From: Promethearchaeia archaeon
Lineage (GTDB): Archaea; Asgardarchaeota; Lokiarchaeia; Sigyniarchaeales; SOKP01
NCBI GenBank assembly: GCA_029856125.1
Contig: JAHQWJ010000007.1
Span: 1 to 64,000 of the forward strand
Reading direction: 5' to 3'
Length of the DNA stretch: 64,000 nt
In this document: positions 38,491 to 61,742 of the stretch, one piece after another
Numbering within the stretch: position 1 is the stretch's first letter
Layout of the letters: each line of letters opens with the position of its first letter
The notes under the pieces: generated by a model
Told to the model about the DNA's origin: nothing
The model's database searches: none
The model's input: only the letters and a program-made list of their open reading frames with translations
Translations under genes and position numbers: made by a program

Positions 38491-39243
38491 ATGAAGTTAC
38501 ACTCACTTTTTATTTTAACTAAGGCGGGAGCTTGCCTATACAGCAGGAATATTACAGAACATTTTGAGAATATCGAACCAAATCTGATAACACCCTTTTT
38601 CTCGGCTATTTTTTCCTTTTCTGAAAGCGTTATTTCTAAAGAAACGCCCGAAGTCCTCGAAATGGGCGGTTTTAGAATTGTTTTCAAGGTAGAAGGTGAG
38701 CATATTTACGCGCTTTTAGCCGATACAAGTGCTAATATTTTGTATATTAACTCTAGATTAGCGAACATTATTCAAGTATTTAAAGAATTCCTCGAGGATA
38801 ATGTTGTTGAAGATTACGAGGAAATCCATAATAGCGAATTTGATGCAAAAATTGTTTCCATTATTAAAGGGGACGATGAGTTATCTTCAAGCCAACCATT
38901 ATATAAAAAGATAATCGATCTCATTAAACGATTGACTCTTGAAAACGAAATTCTAGGCGCAGGATTATTTACTATAAATGGAAAGATAATTTTTACATCC
39001 TTACCACAAGATATTTTATTGTCCTCACTAAAAGAATTAGAAATCAGACATATTGCAAACACTGAATACTCTTTAACATTTTATAGTTTGGAGAACAATC
39101 AAAAAGTATTTTCAAGAATAATTGATATTCCTTGGAAATTAGATCCCTTGTTGATCGTTGTGTTATACGAGTCTTCAGTCCCTCTTGGTATGTGTGAAGT
39201 AAATTTAGAAAAAATAACAAAAACAATTCAAAATATCATTTGA
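38491..39243 (+). CDS. Longin-like plus roadblock-like domain protein
   Basis: This protein of about 250 residues shows two tandem profilin-like folds by pattern. The N-terminal half (1-105) has SLFILTKAGACLYSRNI, a long helix with ITPFFSAIFSFSESVI, paired strands and a closing helix RLANIIQVFKEFLED, as in longin domains. The C-terminal half (about 150-250) begins ILGAGLFTINGKIIFTS and resembles a roadblock/LC7 domain. Such domains regulate small GTPases by dimerising or recruiting them. ATG 38491 is chosen because GGAG lies eight bases upstream; TTG 38479 is in frame. It lies 1.5 kb before GTPase cassette 1. Confidence 0.72.
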   Translation: MKLHSLFILTKAGACLYSRNITEHFENIEPNLITPFFSAIFSFSESVISKETPEVLEMGGFRIVFKVEGEHIYALLADTSANILYINSRLANIIQVFKEFLEDNVVEDYEEIHNSEFDAKIVSIIKGDDELSSSQPLYKKIIDLIKRLTLENEILGAGLFTINGKIIFTSLPQDILLSSLKELEIRHIANTEYSLTFYSLENNQKVFSRIIDIPWKLDPLLIVVLYESSVPLGMCEVNLEKITKTIQNII

Positions 39244-40600: not shown

Positions 40601-40659
40601 TTTTTTTTGGAATCATTTTGATTTTATTTGTGTGTAAAATATTTTATTATTATTTTATT

Positions 40660-40674
40660 TGTGACAACAGAACA
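40660..40674 (+). promoter_or_regulatory. Shared upstream element of cassette 1, copy A
   Basis: TGTGACAACAGAACA lies 112 bases before the ATG of the first cassette gene. A near-identical element, TGTGGCAACATAACA, lies 116 bases before the GTPase ATG of the same cassette (13 of 15 positions match). The similar distance suggests a common regulatory site for the two transcription units. Confidence 0.4.
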
Positions 40675-40771: not shown

Positions 40772-41263
40772 ATGGCTTCAGACTATAGCGTAATTTGTAA
40801 ACTTGGAGGATATGTGAATTCTAATCCAGAGATTATTAGCTCCTATCCCTCGCTAGATCAGTCATTAGAAGCAGAAATCCTTTCAAAATGCTTTCCCTTG
40901 GGCTCAAAATATGGAGAATTCATTGTAGAAAAGCATCGTAAATATAGCGTGTTATCGTATGTTTTTAGGATCAATCAAATAGCAGAAAGAGATGATCTTT
41001 TCTCATTGTCGGTTTTATTAAATAAAAGAGATAAAACTGAGATATATATGCCAGTTTTGAAAAGCTTGATAGATAAATTGGATGAAAATAATATACTAAC
41101 TCAAGATATTCTAACTGAATACCAAAAGGTTATATTTGAAGGGATTAACCAAGAACAAGATATTGACATAGAAAATGTGTTAATAGATTTCTCGAACATT
41201 TTTAAAGAAATTAAATCGAAAATACTTAAAGAGAAACCAGAATTAAAAGGGAGTTTTTTATAA
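40772..41263 (+). CDS. Longin-like soluble protein of GTPase cassette 1
   Basis: This 163-residue cytoplasmic protein has no named family that I recognise. The fold pattern is longin-like: DYSVICKLGGYVNSNPEIIS, then a run of strands ending VLSYVFRINQIAERDDLFSL, and a long helix YMPVLKSLIDKLDENN. The placing of an aromatic strand before an acidic R-D-x-F-S-L strand and a final helix recalls NPRL2-type longin domains, though this is only pattern-based. The closest visible relative is the matching gene of cassette 2. The C-terminal KGSF is encoded by bases that also form the GGGAG ribosome site of the next gene, which starts directly after the TAA. ATG 40772 is used. Confidence 0.8.
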   Translation: MASDYSVICKLGGYVNSNPEIISSYPSLDQSLEAEILSKCFPLGSKYGEFIVEKHRKYSVLSYVFRINQIAERDDLFSLSVLLNKRDKTEIYMPVLKSLIDKLDENNILTQDILTEYQKVIFEGINQEQDIDIENVLIDFSNIFKEIKSKILKEKPELKGSFL

Positions 41264-41923
41264 ATGGCTGAAGATTTATTTTTACACGGGCTGGAAAACA
41301 TTGGATATCTATTGAATGTTATTATAATCCCCTTGGCAACGGTTTTAGTAGGGAGGAAGCTTTTAAAGGAGAAAAAGGCAACTGGAAAATTAAATGATAT
41401 TCGTGCTATAATCTTCTTTGTATTCTTTAGTTTTTCAAACCTAGTAATACTAGAATTTCTCATCGGAACTCAATTTTACGATACAACAACAAGAGCATTT
41501 CTAGCAAGTATATTTGGTGGAACCCTTGATGTTTTTAATGTCTATTCATTTGTAATTGGAATCATCGCATCGTTAGGTCTGATGATGGTCGCTGTAGCAA
41601 ACAGATGGGACTTTTTGCAGTATACTTCTATGTTCTTCTTCGGAGGAATGATCCTACTATATACCTTTACTGGCTTCCAAGCATTTTTAGCGCCTTACAT
41701 ATATTTTGCAGGAGGTGCAAGCATAGTTTTTCTGTATCTAACAGCATTTCGTGTAAAAGATAATGGTGCTTTAGCACTGGCTATATTTTTTACTCTCGCC
41801 TTTGGCACTGTCATTGTTGATGTAGCTATGATCACAGGATTTGGCGTAATAATATACAATGGTGTGATCCTAATCTTTTCATTAGGATTGTTTAAACCGT
41901 TTAAAAAGGAGGTTATGGCTTAA
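41264..41923 (+). CDS. First polytopic membrane protein of cassette 1 (about seven helices)
   Basis: This 219-residue membrane protein has about seven hydrophobic helices (roughly 12-30, 46-66, 86-110, 115-135, 138-158, 165-185 and 188-210), with basic loops on one side (LVGRKLLKEKK after helix 1). Shared features with the cassette 2 counterpart include IIIPxxT, the GRK basic loop, a tryptophan in NRW, FxxGxM and a FxxKDNxxLxLAIF segment. No enzyme or transporter motif is seen. It starts immediately after the stop of the longin-like gene and ends one base before the next gene, so the three are co-translated. Confidence 0.8.
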   Translation: MAEDLFLHGLENIGYLLNVIIIPLATVLVGRKLLKEKKATGKLNDIRAIIFFVFFSFSNLVILEFLIGTQFYDTTTRAFLASIFGGTLDVFNVYSFVIGIIASLGLMMVAVANRWDFLQYTSMFFFGGMILLYTFTGFQAFLAPYIYFAGGASIVFLYLTAFRVKDNGALALAIFFTLAFGTVIVDVAMITGFGVIIYNGVILIFSLGLFKPFKKEVMA

Positions 41924-41924
41924 A

Positions 41925-42575
41925 ATGGCGGAAATTGGCTTTTTAGTCGTTGAAATCATTTATTTTATATTTGGTATATTAACGATCTTGAAGACTATGA
42001 AAAATTGGAAGTTGAATAAGAATAGGATGCTTCTTACCGTAACTGTCTATATTTCTTCCATTCTTGTGAGATCTATTATTGATATGGGTGTTTATGCCTC
42101 AGGTTTTGATATCGATATTACAGTAGCGGGGGGGCTTGATATAGGTATGATTATGGGATTCATATTATTTACGATTCAACTTGAATTTATGTTTTATTTA
42201 ATGGATTTACCCAAATTATACACGCTTCCAGTTATTATCACTACTTATCTAATGATGGGAAGAATCTTAGTTGATTCGAGTATACCTTTTATTATATATG
42301 CTATGATAACTGGTTATGGATCCGCGTTCTTTCTTATAAAAGATGGAAGAAAAAGTCGTAATGGATTAGCTATTGGAATGGGTTTGTTCTTTCTTTTTTG
42401 GGGTCTCGGATCTACCTTCCAAATTGAAATTCTATTTGTCTCTTTGAGATTAGTTGCAATGATAGCACTCTTTCTAGGAACAAAAGGTTTTTATGAGAAA
42501 TATGTATTCGTCAATGTCGAAGAAGAGCAGAAAATAATGGGAACCTGGATTGCAAAATTGGTAGTAAAGGAATAA
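41925..42575 (+). CDS. Second polytopic membrane protein of cassette 1 (about seven helices)
   Basis: This 216-residue protein has about seven membrane helices. The best conserved stretch between the two cassettes is DGRKSRNGLAIGMGLFFLFW in the last third; the cassette 2 copy has EGRKTRNGLAVGLGIFFLIY. A second common feature is helix 3 ending in FTIQLEFMFYLMDLPKLY, then LPxxxxxY. The C-terminal tail after the last helix is acidic and cytoplasmic by charge. The family is not recognised, and no transport signature is seen. It could pair with the preceding protein as a membrane platform or receptor for the GTPase. Confidence 0.8.
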   Translation: MAEIGFLVVEIIYFIFGILTILKTMKNWKLNKNRMLLTVTVYISSILVRSIIDMGVYASGFDIDITVAGGLDIGMIMGFILFTIQLEFMFYLMDLPKLYTLPVIITTYLMMGRILVDSSIPFIIYAMITGYGSAFFLIKDGRKSRNGLAIGMGLFFLFWGLGSTFQIEILFVSLRLVAMIALFLGTKGFYEKYVFVNVEEEQKIMGTWIAKLVVKE

Positions 42576-42723
42576 TAACGATTTTTTTTATTTTTTTCTT
42601 ATAACGTTAATTCTATTTGGAATATCAACAAGATTTTAATCTAATTTTAGCTTTGTATTTTTATTGTTAATTCATTTTATTCTATTGATAAAAAGGAAAA
42701 TAAACGCAGCAAAAAAATAATTC

Positions 42724-42738
42724 TGTGGCAACATAACA
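42724..42738 (+). promoter_or_regulatory. Shared upstream element of cassette 1, copy B
   Basis: TGTGGCAACATAACA lies 116 bases before the ATG of the GTPase gene and matches the element before the longin-like gene. The gap from 42576 to 42839 also holds T-runs directly after the preceding stop (from 42582), which may end the upstream transcript. Confidence 0.4.
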
Positions 42739-42839
42739 AACAAAAGAATAAATAATTTCGTTTTTAACTGTAAAGTTATACTATATTTTCAAGATATAAT
42801 TTTAAGTATTTTTCATAAAATAAATTAAAACTGAGCAAA

Positions 42840-43736
42840 ATGGGAATTAAAGATATTTTAAAACGAGTATTTACCAAAGAAAAAAAGATTGTTATAACCG
42901 GGCTTGACAGTGCTGGCAAAACGACCATGATTAGCTTCCTACAGAATGGAACTTTCATGGAACATGCACCAACGATGGGCAAAGAGTTATCTCAAATTGA
43001 AGTTCAGGGAATTCGTATAAATGTTATGGATATGGGTGGGCAAAAGGATTTCAGAAGTTTATGGGTTGGAGAAGCCTCGACTGCTGAGTGTGTAATATTT
43101 ATGATCGACGCATATGCTCCAGAAAGATTCAACGAAGCTAGAAACGAGCTATGGAAATTATCTTCTATTTTTAAGAAGAAACCCTTGATAATATTAGCAA
43201 ATAAGTACGATTTGCAACCGGTTGCATCAATTAGTGAAATTATCGAAGCTTTGAATTTGAAAGATCTACCCTCTTTTGAAGTATTACCGATTTCGTGTAA
43301 AACTGGGTATGGAATTGTAAAAGCATTTATGAAGATTTATTACAAATTGACTGGCCAGCTTCTAACCCAAAAGACAAACCTTCGAGCGATTACCGTTTTT
43401 GATCAAGGGGGAATTCCTTTAACGTCATCTTCAAACGAAGATATATTACAAGGGGGATTATTTACCGCCATCAATAATTTTGTAAGAGAGTCTTTTAATT
43501 CAGAACTCGATCAACTTAAAATGGGAGGACATCTTATCCTCTTCAAACGATCTAAACATCTTATGGGCTCAATAGTAGTTAGTGAAAACGACAACATTGA
43601 TATCCAAGAAATAGAATCAGGATTAAATGATTTATTGCTCCATTTAGAGCACATGTGCCCTGAGCTCGAGAAAGATCAATTAAATTCTAGTAAAATTGAG
43701 TATTTAGTGGAACAATACGCTTCAAATCTGTTATAA
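42840..43736 (+). CDS. Arf-like GTPase with C-terminal longin/roadblock-like domain, cassette 1
   Basis: This 298-residue protein joins an Arf-like GTPase to an extra domain. All five G motifs are intact: GLDSAGKT (21-28), Thr45 in switch I, DMGGQ (64-68), NKYD (121-124) and SCK (152-154). The N-terminus MGIKDILKRVF is amphipathic and has Gly2, as in eukaryotic Arf, suggesting membrane contact. Residues 182-275 (AITVFDQGGIPLTSSSNE, then a helix ending ESFNSELDQLKMGGHLILFK) have a longin/roadblock pattern. The overall order, GTPase then roadblock-type domain, recalls Rag/Gtr proteins, but the GTPase itself is Arf-like. It is the last gene of the cassette. Confidence 0.9.
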   Translation: MGIKDILKRVFTKEKKIVITGLDSAGKTTMISFLQNGTFMEHAPTMGKELSQIEVQGIRINVMDMGGQKDFRSLWVGEASTAECVIFMIDAYAPERFNEARNELWKLSSIFKKKPLIILANKYDLQPVASISEIIEALNLKDLPSFEVLPISCKTGYGIVKAFMKIYYKLTGQLLTQKTNLRAITVFDQGGIPLTSSSNEDILQGGLFTAINNFVRESFNSELDQLKMGGHLILFKRSKHLMGSIVVSENDNIDIQEIESGLNDLLLHLEHMCPELEKDQLNSSKIEYLVEQYASNLL

Positions 43737-53431: not shown

Positions 53432-53935
53432 ATGATTGAAAATACAGAACGGTATATACTATGTAAATTAGGAGGTTTCGATTTATCTAATCCAGAGATT
53501 GTCATCTCCTATCCTACTCTTGATCCTACCCTCAGCGAATCAGAGGATTTACTTTCTAAATGTCTCCCAATAGGTATTAATAGTGGAGATTTTTCAGTTA
53601 GCAAATATAGTAAGTGTAATGTTTTGTCATATGCATTCAAAATAGAACATGAAGAAGAAAGAAACGATTTATTAACAATTTCTATTCTTTTAAAGAAAAA
53701 GTTAAATGTTGATGTTTACAAACCAGTTTTAGAGAACATTATCTCTACATTGAAATATTGCGACCTGCTAACTGAAAAAATTTTGGCAGATTATATTCAA
53801 ACTATTTATAATGGTATTAATGAAGAAAAATTAATATTGATCGATGGTGTTCCTATCGATCTATCAATCATTTTTAAAGAGATAAGATCAAAAATATTTA
53901 AACCAAGACCTGAAGTAAAAGGGAGTTTTTTCTGA
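53432..53935 (+). CDS. Longin-like soluble protein of GTPase cassette 2
   Basis: This 167-residue homologue of the first gene of cassette 1 has the same order of elements: YILCKLGGFDLSNPEIVISY, then a strand with VLSYAFKIEHEEERNDLLTI, the helix YKPVLENIISTLKYC, and the C-terminal RPEVKGSFF. The conserved KLGG, NPEI and KGSF positions set this small family apart. Longin-like fold by pattern only. The TGA stop overlaps the ATG of the next gene by one base, and GGGAG nine bases before that ATG lies inside the codons of the KGSF motif. It probably acts with the GTPase two genes later. Confidence 0.8.
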   Translation: MIENTERYILCKLGGFDLSNPEIVISYPTLDPTLSESEDLLSKCLPIGINSGDFSVSKYSKCNVLSYAFKIEHEEERNDLLTISILLKKKLNVDVYKPVLENIISTLKYCDLLTEKILADYIQTIYNGINEEKLILIDGVPIDLSIIFKEIRSKIFKPRPEVKGSFF

Positions 53936-54588
53936 TGTTAGGACAAGCAGTTGATATAATAGAACTTATGGCAAATTATCTTGGAATTATTATTATTCCA
54001 ATTATGACGATCATTTTGGGTAGAAAAGTGATTTTAGAAAGAAGAGAAATAGAAAAGCTTAATATGATTAGATTTATTATTTTTTGCATTTTCTTAACGC
54101 TTTCCTGGATGCTAATATGGGAGTTTATTTATGAAAGCACACCGCTCGGTGATGTTCTCAATGTAGAATTAATAATCTCAATTAACACATTTTCGTTTTA
54201 TAGTTTTGGCTTAGGATTAATGATCACTCTAGCTATATCAATGGTGAGTTATACAAATCGATGGGAGTCGCTATATTACATATCCTTTTTTATATTCGCA
54301 GGAATGTTTATCGTATTTTTGTCAACAGAAATATCTATTTTTCTTCTTCCTTATGTTTTTGCGGGTGGAGTAATAGCAGTTGTGTTTTTATTTGCTACTG
54401 GGTTTAAATTTAAAGATAATAGCTCATTAGGGCTGGCTATCTTTGCTACTCTCATTTTTCCAACCCTAATAGCAGAAAAAACGATAGTTGGACAGATGTT
54501 AAGTTTAATATATCCTATTTTTGGGTTAATTTTCGCCCTCGGTTATTTCAAATTATTTAAAGCAAAGGTGGTTGAGCAAAATGAGTGA
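53935..54588 (+). CDS. First polytopic membrane protein of cassette 2 (about seven helices)
   Basis: This 217-residue counterpart of the cassette 1 gene at 41264 has the same size and about seven hydrophobic helices. Matching features are IIIPIMTIILGRKVI (helix 1 and basic loop), NMIRFIIFCIFLTLSW (helix 2), SFYSFGLGLMITLAIS (helix 3), NRW, and FKFKDNSSLGLAIFA before helix 6. The family is not recognised. It overlaps both neighbours, at its start by one base and at its end by eight bases, so translation of the three genes is coupled. Confidence 0.8.
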   Translation: MLGQAVDIIELMANYLGIIIIPIMTIILGRKVILERREIEKLNMIRFIIFCIFLTLSWMLIWEFIYESTPLGDVLNVELIISINTFSFYSFGLGLMITLAISMVSYTNRWESLYYISFFIFAGMFIVFLSTEISIFLLPYVFAGGVIAVVFLFATGFKFKDNSSLGLAIFATLIFPTLIAEKTIVGQMLSLIYPIFGLIFALGYFKLFKAKVVEQNE

Positions 54589-55228
54589 TTTACCAATATT
54601 TTTATTATTAGAAGTTGTTTTTTTGGTTTTTTGCATCGTTACAATACTGATTATTCTCAGAACATACTTAGAGATTAGGGAATCTATTTATCTTGGATTA
54701 ATGGTTTTCTTTGCTGCAATGCTTTTTAATTCACTTTTTCGGATTATTAATCTATTCATTACACTAGATTTGACTGTCGGAGTCAAACTAAGCTCATCTA
54801 ACATTATCGCCCTATTAATTTTCAGCATTCAACTGCGATTCTTCCTTTATTTAAAAAAACTAATAAAATTATATTGGCTTCCATTAGTTGCCAGTTTCTA
54901 CATAGGTTTTGGGCTAATTGTAAATGCTTCTCTAATATTTTTTATCTCTTATGCTGTAGTGATCGGTTTTGTTATTCCTGTCATACTATTAAGAGAAGGC
55001 AGAAAAACACGTAACGGTCTTGCCGTTGGACTTGGAATATTCTTTCTAATATATGGACTAAGTAAAATGCTTCAAGTTCCATTCGTACCTGAATTATTAA
55101 GAATTATCGGAATAATTATCTCCACTTTAGCAGTTTTAGAGTTCTTTGATAAGTATCTTTTCTACGATAAGGAAGAAAAAGAAAAAATTCAGAACGCTTG
55201 GATTTCAAAACTAACTGATAAGAAATAA
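54581..55228 (+). CDS. Second polytopic membrane protein of cassette 2 (about seven helices)
   Basis: This protein of about 215 residues is the counterpart of the cassette 1 gene at 41925. It has about seven helices and the shared EGRKTRNGLAVGLGIFFLIY segment. The helix 3 end, IFSIQLRFFLYLKKLIKLYW, then LPL, is also conserved. The start ATG 54581 lies inside the end of the preceding gene and is preceded by AAGGTGG; an in-frame TTG nine bases earlier is an alternative. A 177-base gap with a duplicated promoter separates it from the GTPase gene. Confidence 0.8.
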   Translation: MSDLPIFLLLEVVFLVFCIVTILIILRTYLEIRESIYLGLMVFFAAMLFNSLFRIINLFITLDLTVGVKLSSSNIIALLIFSIQLRFFLYLKKLIKLYWLPLVASFYIGFGLIVNASLIFFISYAVVIGFVIPVILLREGRKTRNGLAVGLGIFFLIYGLSKMLQVPFVPELLRIIGIIISTLAVLEFFDKYLFYDKEEKEKIQNAWISKLTDKK

Positions 55229-55271
55229 AAGGATTCTATGCAAAATAGATAAATTTTTACACTATTCTTTG

Positions 55272-55341
55272 ACTTAAGTTTAAATATAAAAACTCTTACT
55301 ATTTAGTTAAGCTCTATGGTCTAAGGGATAAGGGACATGGA
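55272..55341 (+). promoter_or_regulatory. Duplicated promoter/leader of cassette 2, copy B
   Basis: ACTTAAGTTTAAATA, then AAACTCTTACTATTTA, closely matches the block before the longin-like gene of the same cassette (53330). It places a TATA-like TTTAAATA about 126 bases before the GTPase ATG, which implies a long leader. The shared block suggests that the operon and the GTPase gene are controlled together. Confidence 0.55.
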
Positions 55342-55405
55342 AAAAATTTTTTTGTGTTCAAATCACTCGCTCTAAAAATTATTAAAATAACAGATGTGAG
55401 AAATA

Positions 55406-56305
55406 ATGGGTGTTAAAAATATTTTGCATAAACTTTTCGCTAAGGAAAAAAAAATTGTAATCTGTGGGTTGGATAATGCAGGAAAAAGCACTTTAGTAAG
55501 CTTTCTCCAAAATGGAACTTTTGTTAAGCACACTCCTACTATGGGAAAGGATTTAACTAAATTAGAAGTTCAAGGTATTCCTATAAATCTTATGGACATG
55601 GGTGGTCAAAAAGATTTTAGAGATATGTGGTTAGGAGAACTCTCAAACGCATCATGTGTAATTTTTATGATAGACGCTTACGCCCAAGAAAGATTTAACG
55701 AAGCGAAAGACGAATTATGGAAACTATCTTCAGTTTTTAAGAAGAAACCATTAATTGTATTAACAAATAAGAACGATATGACTCCAGTAGCTTCCGCGGG
55801 CGATATTATAAAAGCGCTGGACTTGCATAAAATTGATACATTTGAAATACTTCCTATTTCCTGCAAAACGGGATATGGTATTGTATCAGCATTCACGAAA
55901 ATTTATCACAAACTTACTGGGAAACAGTTAGGTAATGCAGTAACTCCTAAGGCAGTAACAGTTTTTGATAGGGGAGGAGTCCCATTGACATCTTCTTCCA
56001 ATCAAGATATCTTGCATGGCGGTTTATTTGCTGCTATTACTCAATACGCTAAAGAGTCTTTTAACTCTGAACTAAATCAAATTAGACTTGAGGGTAATAT
56101 TATCCTTTTTAAACGGACTAACCACCTAATGGGATCGATAGTTCTCAGAGAAGAGGATAGTGAAATGATAAAAGAAGCAGAAGTAGGATTAGGTGAATTG
56201 CTTTCACATCTTGAACATATGTGCCCTGAACTTGAAAAGGAGCAAACGGATGCTAAAAAAATTGAGTATTTAGTCGAGCAATACTCTTCAAATCTTATGA
56301 ATTAA
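55406..56305 (+). CDS. Arf-like GTPase with C-terminal longin/roadblock-like domain, cassette 2
   Basis: This 299-residue homologue of the cassette 1 GTPase is similar along its whole length. The G motifs are GLDNAGKS (21-28), a threonine in TPTMGKD, DMGGQ (64-68), NKND (121-124) and SCK. The N-terminus MGVKNILHKLF again has Gly2 and an amphipathic pattern. The C-terminal domain (AVTVFDRGGVPLTSSSNQD to GSIVLREEDSEMIKEAEVGL) and the tail KKIEYLVEQYSSNLM match the first copy. Retention of all catalytic residues in both copies suggests that both are active. It is separated from the membrane-protein genes by its own promoter and is convergent with thiDN. Confidence 0.9.
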   Translation: MGVKNILHKLFAKEKKIVICGLDNAGKSTLVSFLQNGTFVKHTPTMGKDLTKLEVQGIPINLMDMGGQKDFRDMWLGELSNASCVIFMIDAYAQERFNEAKDELWKLSSVFKKKPLIVLTNKNDMTPVASAGDIIKALDLHKIDTFEILPISCKTGYGIVSAFTKIYHKLTGKQLGNAVTPKAVTVFDRGGVPLTSSSNQDILHGGLFAAITQYAKESFNSELNQIRLEGNIILFKRTNHLMGSIVLREEDSEMIKEAEVGLGELLSHLEHMCPELEKEQTDAKKIEYLVEQYSSNLMN

Positions 56306-58474: not shown

Positions 58475-60040
58475 ATGTCAGTAAATAAAAAGCGATTGTT
58501 CAATGAGCTCCTAACAAAATTTTTACTAGCGTATGAAGATGTGGATGCTCTGATTGTATCTGATCATGAAGGACTTATAATTGCTGGGCAAAAAAGAGCA
58601 TCTGTGGACATGGAATTGGTATCTGTTTTAACAGTTTTAATCAATCCTCTTTTAGAAAGAATTAGAGAAGAATTTGCTTTCAAAAAATTTGGATCAGCTA
58701 GCTTTGACACCGAAAACAATCGATTGTTGTTTATATCTATTGACGAGAATATAACTCTCAGTGTTGTATTAGATACACTATCATCCATTGATAAAATTAG
58801 CCCATATGCCTATTTTTTGGCAGAAAAAACAGCTCAAATTATTTATGCTGGAGAAAACGATAACATTCAAGTCTCAATACCCAACTTCGACACAGAATCC
58901 GAAAGCTTAAAGGAACCCGATAGAATAAAAGATCAAATCTACCAATTGCGTTTAGATTCAGGGGGGATCTATAAATTTAAATTTATAATCGTAGGTGACA
59001 AAGCTGTTGGAAAATCTTCGATTGTAAGGAGATTTGTAGAAAATAGATTTTCTCTTGATTATAGGTCTACTCTTGGCTTAAATGTTCTCTCTCATTCATT
59101 AGGATTCTACGGAAATGAAGTTTACTTTTCACTTTGGGATGTAGGTGCGCAGGAATATTTCAAACGCTTTAGAAAAACTTATTATATAGGCGCACAAGCT
59201 GCTTTCATCGTGTTTGATGTTTGTAAAAGAGATACCTTTGCAAATGTGAAAGTATGGTATAAAGAACTAGAAGATTTTCTCCATAAAAAAAATATACCAA
59301 TTGTAATTGTAGGTAATAAAATAGATTTAGCAGATCAGAGAAGTGTAGAGTATAAAGAGGGAATTGAGCTAGTCGAAGAGCTTACCAAAGAAAGTGTTGA
59401 AAGTTATTTCTCGTATATTGAAACCAGCGCATTAACCGGCGAAAATATCGAAGATGCGTTTAGTTTAATTGCTTACCATTACATAATGAAGAGTAAAGAG
59501 AGGGAGGAGCAAAGATTAAAAGAGAGCTTAATGGATCAAATCAATTCGATATTAGAGAAAAGAGGAAAATTAACCATCTCTTTTATTACTGAAAATCCAT
59601 ATTGGAGCCCAGGATTGCAGATTCTAAATGATGTTAATACATTATGTGAGTGTGAAAAACTAATAGATGATAAAGATAAAAGATTGTATAAATACTCCAA
59701 TGGGCTAATTATTAAGAATTTTTTATTCGATAACTTAGATGTAAAAGATTCTGATAGCGTATTTGTAATATTCGACGCCAGAAAAAAAACACACATCGAG
59801 CAAAAATGGAAAGATGTAGTTGTGAACATTATAAGCAATTTAAAGGAAAATAAAGTAGCACTAATTGGCGTGAGAGTATCAGATGAGACTGATTGGTCTA
59901 ACATAATGGAAGAATTTAATGTTAATCAATTCCTAGAGAAGAAAATGGTATCTCTTTTGTTTTTTAAGATTGGCTTCGAGTATAGGCTGGAAATATATGA
60001 TCAACTTGATGTAATGTTTAGTACAATTACAAACTTATGA
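58475..60040 (+). CDS. Roadblock - Rab-like GTPase - unknown C-terminal domain protein, copy 1
   Basis: This 521-residue three-domain protein starts with a roadblock/LC7 domain (1-125, e.g. VDALIVSDHEGLIIAGQK and LINPLLERIREEFAFKKFG). A Rab-like GTPase follows (165-345): P-loop GDKAVGKSS (174-182), Thr199, WDVGAQ (221-226), NKID (281-284) and ETSAL. In switch II the usual DxAGQ is shifted to DVGAQ, so the glutamine is kept but the glycine order differs. The last ~170 residues are an alpha/beta domain I do not recognise, e.g. SDSVFVIFDARKK and KVALIGVRVSDETDW. The roadblock domain precedes rather than follows the GTPase, unlike Rag proteins. It is tandem with a paralogue. Confidence 0.9.
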   Translation: MSVNKKRLFNELLTKFLLAYEDVDALIVSDHEGLIIAGQKRASVDMELVSVLTVLINPLLERIREEFAFKKFGSASFDTENNRLLFISIDENITLSVVLDTLSSIDKISPYAYFLAEKTAQIIYAGENDNIQVSIPNFDTESESLKEPDRIKDQIYQLRLDSGGIYKFKFIIVGDKAVGKSSIVRRFVENRFSLDYRSTLGLNVLSHSLGFYGNEVYFSLWDVGAQEYFKRFRKTYYIGAQAAFIVFDVCKRDTFANVKVWYKELEDFLHKKNIPIVIVGNKIDLADQRSVEYKEGIELVEELTKESVESYFSYIETSALTGENIEDAFSLIAYHYIMKSKEREEQRLKESLMDQINSILEKRGKLTISFITENPYWSPGLQILNDVNTLCECEKLIDDKDKRLYKYSNGLIIKNFLFDNLDVKDSDSVFVIFDARKKTHIEQKWKDVVVNIISNLKENKVALIGVRVSDETDWSNIMEEFNVNQFLEKKMVSLLFFKIGFEYRLEIYDQLDVMFSTITNL

Positions 60041-60179
60041 AATTTTTTATTCTATATTAGTGAGTATTAGCGTGGATAGTTTATATTTTCAAATAACTAC
60101 TTTTAAAAGCAAGTTAAATTATATTATTGATAAGAACATTTTCTGCTTGATCCAATTCAAAAATGTGTGGTGTATCCAC

Positions 60180-61742
60180 TTGTCAATTAATAGAAAACGA
60201 CTATTCGACGAGATTCTTAACAATTTTCTAGAAAGATTTTCTGATGTTGAAGCAATTATCGTTTCAGATCATGAAGGTTTCGTTATCGCCGGAGAAAAAA
60301 GAAAAGACACTGAAAGTGATCTAGAAATCGTATCAGTGTTGACGACTCTGATAAATCCCGTTTTAGAAAGAATAAGAAATGAATTTGCCTTCAAGAAATT
60401 TGGAACTGCTTCGTTCGACACGGATGAGCATCGCTTAATGTTTATTACAATTGACGAAGAAAGAATTTTAAGCATAATTTTTAATAGCATGGCATCAGTT
60501 GAAAAAGTTGCACCATATACCTATTTCTTAGCTGAGAAAACTGCTCAAATACTTAATTCTGGTGAGGATGATACACTTCAATTAGTGATTCCTGATTTTG
60601 ACTCTGATACAGAAAGGCATGAAAAGCTTAAAGAATCTATTTGTCAATCAGAAATCGATGATTGTGTAAATTACAACTTTAAATTCGTTATTATAGGAAA
60701 CCACGAGGTAGGAAAAACTTCTCTAATACGACAATTCGTAGAAAGAAAGTTTTTGCACGATTATCGAGCAACCATAGGATTAAACATTTTCGCTCATAAT
60801 TTTGACTTTCAGGGAAACGAAATTAGTGTCCAACTCTGGGATATAGGTGCGCAGCAATATTTTAAAAGGTTTCGCAAGATATACTACAACGGTGCAGAAG
60901 CGGCCTTTATTGTCTTTGATATTACTAACAGAGAATCATTTGGGAAAATCAAAGATTGGTATAAAGAGATTAATCAGCTCATTGATGAAACAAATATCCC
61001 TATAGTTATAGTGGGGAATAAAGATGATTTAGCTGGACAGAGAGTAATATCCACAGCTGAAGGCGAAGCATTAGCAAAATCTTTGTCAGAAACCGGGTTG
61101 TCCTATATAGAGACGAGCGCTTTAACTGGAAGTAATGTCAAAGACGCCTTTGAATTAATGGCGTACCATTATATCATTAAAAGTAAAAAAAAGGAAAAAG
61201 ATCAAATCCAGGAAAGTCTAACAGAAGCAATAATTTCAACGTTAAAAGAGCTTATTATATTAGAATTAACGTTTATCACGGACGATTTTAATTGGAATCC
61301 CGGATTCCAGACGATCGTAAATTTAGAGAAATTAGGCGAATTCTCGAAGTTAAAAGACAACCACAGCGAAAAACTATATCCCTACAAAAATGGGTTGATA
61401 ATAAGTAGTTATATGTATGACGAATTCAACCTCTCTAATTCGGATGGTGTTTTTATCATCTTTGACGCTCGAAATAAGGAGCACATTGATCCAGAATGGA
61501 AAAATATACTTATGAGGACAATCAAAAAGATAAGAAAAAAACGAGCTGTTATTGTAGGGCTTCGAGTTTCCGACGATAAAAACTACCCACAATTGATGGA
61601 TGAATTTGTTATCGACAATGATTTAGAAGAGAAAATCGTATCAGTTCTCTTCCTCAAAATTGGTACCGACTACAGAGAAAAAATGTACGATCACCTTATA
61701 CTCATGTTAGAACTTATTGTTAACACGAGAAAATTAAAATAA
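60180..61742 (+). CDS. Roadblock - Rab-like GTPase - unknown C-terminal domain protein, copy 2
   Basis: This tandem paralogue of the preceding gene has the same three domains. The roadblock part includes VEAIIVSDHEGFVIAGEK. The GTPase has GNHEVGKTS, DYRATIGLN, WDIGAQ, NKDD and ETSAL. The C-terminal domain includes SDGVFIIFDARNKEH and VIVGLRVSDDKNYP. I place the start at TTG 60180: from there the product is 520 residues and aligns from its first residue with copy 1 (MSINRKRLFDEIL against MSVNKKRLFNELL). The open frame runs 120 bases further upstream, but that part has no counterpart in copy 1. Both copies keep all nucleotide-binding motifs, so both are probably active. Confidence 0.9.
   Translation: MSINRKRLFDEILNNFLERFSDVEAIIVSDHEGFVIAGEKRKDTESDLEIVSVLTTLINPVLERIRNEFAFKKFGTASFDTDEHRLMFITIDEERILSIIFNSMASVEKVAPYTYFLAEKTAQILNSGEDDTLQLVIPDFDSDTERHEKLKESICQSEIDDCVNYNFKFVIIGNHEVGKTSLIRQFVERKFLHDYRATIGLNIFAHNFDFQGNEISVQLWDIGAQQYFKRFRKIYYNGAEAAFIVFDITNRESFGKIKDWYKEINQLIDETNIPIVIVGNKDDLAGQRVISTAEGEALAKSLSETGLSYIETSALTGSNVKDAFELMAYHYIIKSKKKEKDQIQESLTEAIISTLKELIILELTFITDDFNWNPGFQTIVNLEKLGEFSKLKDNHSEKLYPYKNGLIISSYMYDEFNLSNSDGVFIIFDARNKEHIDPEWKNILMRTIKKIRKKRAVIVGLRVSDDKNYPQLMDEFVIDNDLEEKIVSVLFLKIGTDYREKMYDHLILMLELIVNTRKLK

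Follow-up and report, generated by a model that had tools for sequence, protein, structure and literature searches.

A conserved gene cassette linking an Arf-family GTPase, probable longin proteins and seven-helix membrane proteins in Asgard archaea

Small GTPases fused to roadblock or longin domains are a known class of proteins in Asgard archaea (PMC10933270), and NPRL2-like longins have already been reported in Lokiarchaea (PMC9834061). Longin pairs with an arginine finger act on ARF1: in the GTPase-activating protein (GAP) of ARF1, Arg147 of SMCR8 serves as the catalytic finger, and a like function has been suggested for arginines in NPRL2 and FLCN (PMC8213707). A study from 2024 found that the GTPase genes of MK-D1 generally lie outside operons with roadblock, longin or TRAPPC3 genes, and judged genome layout to be of little help in matching Asgard GTPases to their regulators (PMC10933270). 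Here we analyzed a stretch of 64,000 nucleotides (nt) of contig JAHQWJ010000007.1, below called the window, from a Lokiarchaeota genome of 3.69 Mb (estimated 99% complete, 6% contamination). The window contains two copies of a four-gene cassette, A-B-C-D, in which the gene for an Arf-family GTPase (D) stands beside genes for a soluble protein (A) and two seven-transmembrane (7TM) proteins (B and C). We conclude that the cassette is a real and conserved module, apparently undescribed so far, that joins known switch parts to a new 7TM superfamily. The genes of both copies are as follows.

A1, 40772 to 41263, + strand: soluble protein of about 163 amino acids (aa), probable NPRL2-like longin, with near-invariant R73
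B1, 41264 to 41923, + strand: 7TM protein, N-terminus predicted outside and C-terminus inside, homologue of C1
C1, 41925 to 42575, + strand: 7TM protein, N-terminus predicted outside and C-terminus inside, with a conserved cytoplasmic tail (EEEQKIMGTWIxKL)
D1, 42840 to 43736, + strand: Arf-family GTPase (residues 1-172) with a C-terminal longin-type domain (about 178-298)
A2, 53432 to 53935, + strand: paralogue of A1
B2, 53935 to 54588, + strand: paralogue of B1
C2, 54581 to 55228, + strand: paralogue of C1
D2, 55406 to 56305, + strand: paralogue of D1

An earlier note on this DNA had described two cassettes with counterpart genes in the same order, the first three tightly coupled, and with two membrane proteins of about seven helices and an Arf-like GTPase in each. 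We found the eight open reading frames at the positions given there, and all of these points held. The cassettes at 40772-43736 and 53432-56305 are paralogous gene by gene, with identities of 36-67% in four one-to-one pairs: 67% for D (E=7e-161), 50% for A (E=1e-52), 39% for B (E=1e-38) and 36% for C (E=4e-41). In copy 1 the gaps are 0 nt between A and B and 1 nt between B and C; in copy 2 the same genes overlap by 1 and 8 nt. The gap between C and D is 264 nt in copy 1 and 177 nt in copy 2. Cassette 1 is the genus-typical copy (closest relatives 73-91% identical), and cassette 2 is a divergent copy with best matches of roughly 38-69%.

We then surveyed a panel of 228 Asgard genomes. The A family was present in 54 and the C family in 24, so the distribution is patchy and the majority of the genomes do without the cassette. 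Among 63 A genes (matches of at least 60 bits), a GTPase gene was found nearby at 51, a 7TM gene at 53 and both at 47; the cassette families therefore co-occur outside the window. By our own estimate, a GTPase gene would stand that close by chance in about 6-7% of cases, as the cassette-bearing genome has 71 matches to the Pfam Arf model in 3.7 Mb. Many of the loci are close relatives. Therefore we took the family as the independent unit, and the association of A, GTPase and 7TM protein holds in five families. The usual order in the window's own family (f1) is A-B-C-D, and two related families, f3 and f4, have D in first place (D-A-B-C). In two distant families (f12 and f17) we observed A-Arf-M, where the Arf protein has about 178 aa and lacks the longin tail, and M is a membrane protein with 6-8 helices; in one f17 genome the A genes number eight, and several of these belong to A-Arf-M units. 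The linkage was thus kept across the five families despite changed order, strand and flanks. M proved homologous to C when the wider M superfamily was used (E=2.6e-7, score 53, compared with at most 20 for eight unrelated membrane families), after an initial comparison with a narrower M set had been negative (probability 0.6). Therefore, the common core consists of a longin-like A, an Arf GTPase and a 7TM protein.

The cassette also comes and goes as a whole. Eight genomes of the same genus yielded no A and no C; in them the flanking genes c4 (oxidoreductase) and c7 (tetratricopeptide repeat, TPR) lie side by side and the cassette between them is missing. As the flanks are intact, the cassette is lost or gained as a unit, and since the c4 protein of one empty-site genome is 95% identical to that of the window, this can be recent. 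One of the eight keeps no more than an open reading frame of 135 aa that corresponds to the D longin domain (L176 7106-7513, - strand). This is one of three separate cases of that domain without its GTPase domain. In G105 (L080 12015-12524, - strand) it follows A-B-C, and in G157 (L084 7573-8400, - strand) it is fused to A, while B, C and the GTPase are gone. Further, different Asgards carry fusions of a zinc-ribbon-like domain, CPxC...C[GE]HxFxxYxDR, for which Pfam gave no match; its fusion partner is C, a second A-like protein or A:

Zinc-ribbon-like domain: L090 6734-7348 (- strand); L092 9536-10141 (+ strand); C-termini of the C proteins in L090, L091 and L092; N-terminus of L085 7717-8400 (- strand)

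These fusions, of A to the D longin domain and of a common zinc ribbon to different members, point to the cassette as a unit of inheritance.

The D proteins of the window belong fully to the Arf family (118.6 and 119.8 bits with Pfam Arf, cut-off 22.3). The P-loop GLDxAGK[TS], the DxGGQ motif (DMGGQ) and NKxD are intact in cassette D proteins of several families, and the Arf-like N-terminus MGxKxILxxxF likewise recurs in several. On binding GTP, Arf inserts the amphipathic helix at its N-terminus into the membrane, and by analogy the predicted N-terminal helix of D may do the same. In the phylogenetic tree, D formed a strong clade (support 100/98), and the A-linked Arf proteins of f12 and f17 formed another (99/100).

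The last approximately 120 residues of the window D proteins, taken alone, had no convincing Pfam match, and their C-terminal domains did not match Fuz_longin_1. Robl_LC7 (roadblock) was matched in Pfam neither by them nor by A. The fusion of A and D in L084 obtained 13.4 bits with Fuz_longin_1 (cut-off 26.1). In hhalign comparisons, the D C-terminus was related with moderate probability to c16, a longin-like protein of distant Asgards (E=4.8e-5, probability 68), and to c6 (E=8.1e-5, probability 61), a neighbour of cassette 1:

c6, 38497 to 39243, + strand: longin protein upstream of cassette 1; Fuz_longin_1 (MON1/FUZ/HPS1) E=0.001, 19.7 bits, below the cut-off of 26.1

As these Pfam scores are below the curated cut-off, we speak of a resemblance of the D C-terminus to the MON1/FUZ/HPS1 longin and not of formal membership. 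c6 is syntenic across the genus, also in genomes without the cassette, and is a possible associate of the cassette outside the unit.

A is a soluble protein of about 165 aa. In a Pfam scan of 38 members, no longin family was matched at E<0.5, and the NPR2, C9orf72, folliculin and DENN models were unmatched. We prepared a profile from two sequences, the longins of NPRL2 and Npr2, with letters checked against PDB entries. A matched it weakly (E=0.005) but colinearly over 117-149 columns, almost end to end. This match scored above 33 unrelated pair profiles used as controls; the one control that outscored it was an A-like protein encoded beside the cassette in another family. A relation of A to the D C-terminus or to c6 was undetectable by profile comparison. 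From these comparisons, A is a probable NPRL2-like longin, a class already reported from Lokiarchaea (PMC9834061). The most conserved charged residue of the A family is R73 (57 of 60), which aligns near R78 of NPRL2, with a register uncertain by about one residue. Because Arg147 of SMCR8 is catalytic, and arginines of NPRL2 and FLCN have been proposed to act alike (PMC8213707), R73 is a candidate GAP finger, and A perhaps acts as a GAP through it. The term longin-like in the earlier note thus suits the D C-terminus and has moderate support for A, with formal proof for neither.

B and C are homologues, with an hhalign match of E=2e-13 that spans 183 columns. By hydropathy count, exactly seven helices are predicted in 28 of 29 B proteins and 20 of 23 C proteins. 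A strong positive-inside signal (lysine and arginine 287 against 36 for B, 297 against 36 for C) indicates an outside N-terminus and a cytoplasmic C-terminus, and the cytoplasmic tail is the best-conserved part of C. An AlphaFold2 (AF2) model of C consisted of seven long helices (predicted local distance difference test, pLDDT, 71). The top PDB matches of this model were G protein-coupled receptors (GPCRs) and microbial rhodopsins, all of them insignificant (E of at least 0.28). Therefore, for B and C we claim topology alone and do not call C a GPCR. Neither B nor C matched any Pfam or NCBIfam family, transporter models included.

The M proteins (L188-L207 and others) belong to a broad Asgard 7TM superfamily outside Pfam, present in 76 of the 228 genomes. 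Some of its genes adjoin GTPase genes or stand in tandem. One member gave a below-cut-off match to 7TMR-DISM_7TM (E=2.5e-4).

We propose that the four genes encode a membrane-coupled switch built on an Arf-type GTPase, with B and C as receptor or platform and the longins as regulators of the GTPase, and we put the probability of this reading at about one half. B and C would probably pair as a seven-helix receptor or platform with outside N-termini and cytoplasmic tails, and the conserved tail of C would dock A or D. D would shuttle between cytosol and membrane with its nucleotide state. Around the GTPase, A and the D longin domain would probably form a pair like that of the SMCR8 and C9orf72 longins on ARF1 (PMC8213707), and would together set the GTP hydrolysis of D, A perhaps supplying the arginine. 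The output would be membrane signalling or membrane remodelling. The signalling or trafficking role that the earlier note had suggested is in our hands, too, an inference, and as a whole its reading is partly supported. Neither of the two findings that the note had named as fatal to it was made: the cassette families do occur together in other genomes, and B and C matched no known transporter family in Pfam or NCBIfam. The sequences themselves establish the family and motifs of D, the homology of B with C, the topology pattern, the gene linkage and the loss as a unit, from which the mechanism is inferred.

Several observations weigh against this proposal. The GTPases of the distant families have no longin tail and six f17 loci have no GTPase gene, so not all parts are always needed. 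That all cassette GTPases form one clade is weakly supported: a single branch set D and the Arf proteins of f12 and f17 apart from the rest solely after the tree had been pruned (74/55). The AF2 model of A was poor (pLDDT 60) and found no fold match in the PDB. Compared with A as single sequences, C9orf72 and NPRL2 scored 12.9 and 14.0, below decoys that reached 26. The model of C had no significant PDB match (best Foldseek E=0.28, TM about 0.4).

A bolder form of the proposal is a receptor-G-protein module common to several Asgard lineages, in which 7TM proteins with a GPCR-like topology would pass their signal straight to a G protein of the Arf family, and a longin GAP of the NPRL2/C9orf72 type would control its GTP hydrolysis. 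We consider this form rather doubtful. If true, it would be a prokaryotic forerunner or parallel of receptor-G-protein coupling and of longin-GAP regulation.

An unlikely rival is a machine for vesiculation or membrane remodelling. The Arf helix would deform the membrane, B and C would define where this happens or bring the cargo, and the longins would act like coat adaptors. The mode of work would resemble that of ArvABC, though the cassette lies outside that family. Longins are parts of Arf-dependent coats too, and the Arf-like N-terminal helix of D would fit such a machine. In Haloferax, a small-GTPase operon drives vesicle formation (PMC10927574). However, the cassette contains no coat-like protein (solenoid or propeller), ArvB (DUF2073) and ArvC (DUF2072) are absent from it by Pfam, and the adjoining TPR protein c7 remains when the cassette is lost.

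It is slightly less probable still that B and C are a two-subunit transporter or channel that A and D gate or localise by the state of the cell. Paired paralogous multi-helix subunits are a frequent design of transporters, and neither B nor C has a ligand-binding domain on the outside. The lack of Pfam and NCBIfam transporter matches speaks against it; no transporter matched the C model significantly in structure, and the match of the wider-M relative is to a 7TM signalling model, 7TMR-DISM, below its cut-off. Finally, linkage without joint function, by ordinary gene-order conservation in a slowly rearranging stretch, is hardly credible: the neighbours c6, c4, c7 and c5 are likewise syntenic across the genus, but the linkage was retained in five families though rearranged, and the four genes vanish together while their neighbours stay.

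An operator-like element of 18 bp precedes A1 and D1 in cassette 1:

ATTTGTGACAACAGAACA, 40657 to 40674, + strand: precedes A1; second-highest match in the genome
TTCTGTGGCAACATAACA, 42721 to 42738, + strand: precedes D1; highest match in the genome; conserved ahead of D throughout the genus

As the pattern was derived from these two sites, their genome ranking is descriptive. The element suggests that A1 and D1 are co-regulated; it was not evident in cassette 2. The gap between C and D contains, across the genus, the conserved element and AT-rich stretches, so a promoter of its own for D, as claimed in the earlier note, is plausible there; f3 and f4 differ in that D lies directly upstream of A. 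An Rfam scan of the cassette region found nothing.

Several neighbouring genes were also recorded. At f12 loci L095 (3107-4525), L096 and L100-L102, two tandem proteins of about 470 aa follow A-Arf-M and match Intu_longin_1 (CCZ1/INTU/HPS4) weakly; they are perhaps a tri-longin pair. Weak relatives of A in f12 (L132-L134, L136, L137, L140) stand, without a GTPase, beside other membrane proteins, either of 600-640 aa with 6-8 helices or as two tandem five-helix proteins of about 190 aa. In the window, 58475-60040 and 60060-61742 (both + strand) encode tandem large GTPases with a central Ras/Rab-like domain and weak roadblock-type matches at the N-terminus.

Asgard archaea are the closest prokaryotic relatives of eukaryotes, and the cassette may show how Arf-type switches met membranes before eukaryotes. 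Their genomes carry dozens of Arf/Ras-type GTPases in need of partners, and here a GTPase comes as a matched set with a likely longin regulator and membrane partners, including a 7TM superfamily absent from Pfam. The tying of Arf-type switches to membranes before eukaryotes thereby becomes a small, expressible problem of four proteins. In agreement with the earlier note, we found no report of a GTPase-longin-7TM unit in the searchable open-access literature; a prior mention in a 2025 study of Asgard Arf GTPases is possible.

Compared with known systems, the cassette resembles C9orf72-SMCR8 (the ARF GAP), FLCN-FNIP and the NPRL2/NPRL3 part of GATOR1 in teaming an Arf or Rag GTPase with partners of the longin type, in a conserved arginine of A at a comparable position and in a weak end-to-end NPRL2/Npr2 profile match. 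In contrast to these, A is a single domain without DENN or other domains, and gene order couples it to an Arf of its own and to two 7TM proteins. The first longin domain of the tri-longin Rab exchange factors MON1-CCZ1, FUZ-INTU and HPS1-HPS4 resembles the D C-terminus and c6, whereas in the cassette the Arf GTPase itself carries one fused longin and the matches are below the Pfam cut-off. With GPCR-G protein pairs and microbial rhodopsins, B and C share seven helices, the orientation and a genetic tie to an Arf-type G-domain protein. They differ in lacking detectable sequence homology and in their insignificant fold matches, and the cassette has a small GTPase instead of a heterotrimeric G protein. 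MglA/MglB and Rag/Ragulator also combine a small GTPase with a regulator of the roadblock/longin superfamily, but the cassette has an Arf-type GTPase, no Robl_LC7 match and dedicated 7TM subunits. The haloarchaeal ArvABC vesiculation operon (PMC10927574) likewise joins an archaeal small GTPase to two dedicated partners. Those are DUF2073 and zinc-ribbon (DUF2072) proteins, with no longin and no 7TM protein; as the partners differ and no cassette protein matched DUF2073 or DUF2072 in Pfam, homology to ArvABC was rejected. Closest in phylum and in protein class are the Asgard GTPase fusions (PMC10933270) and NPRL2-like longins (PMC9834061). There the proteins were described, whereas here they belong to a conserved GTPase-longin-7TM gene unit.

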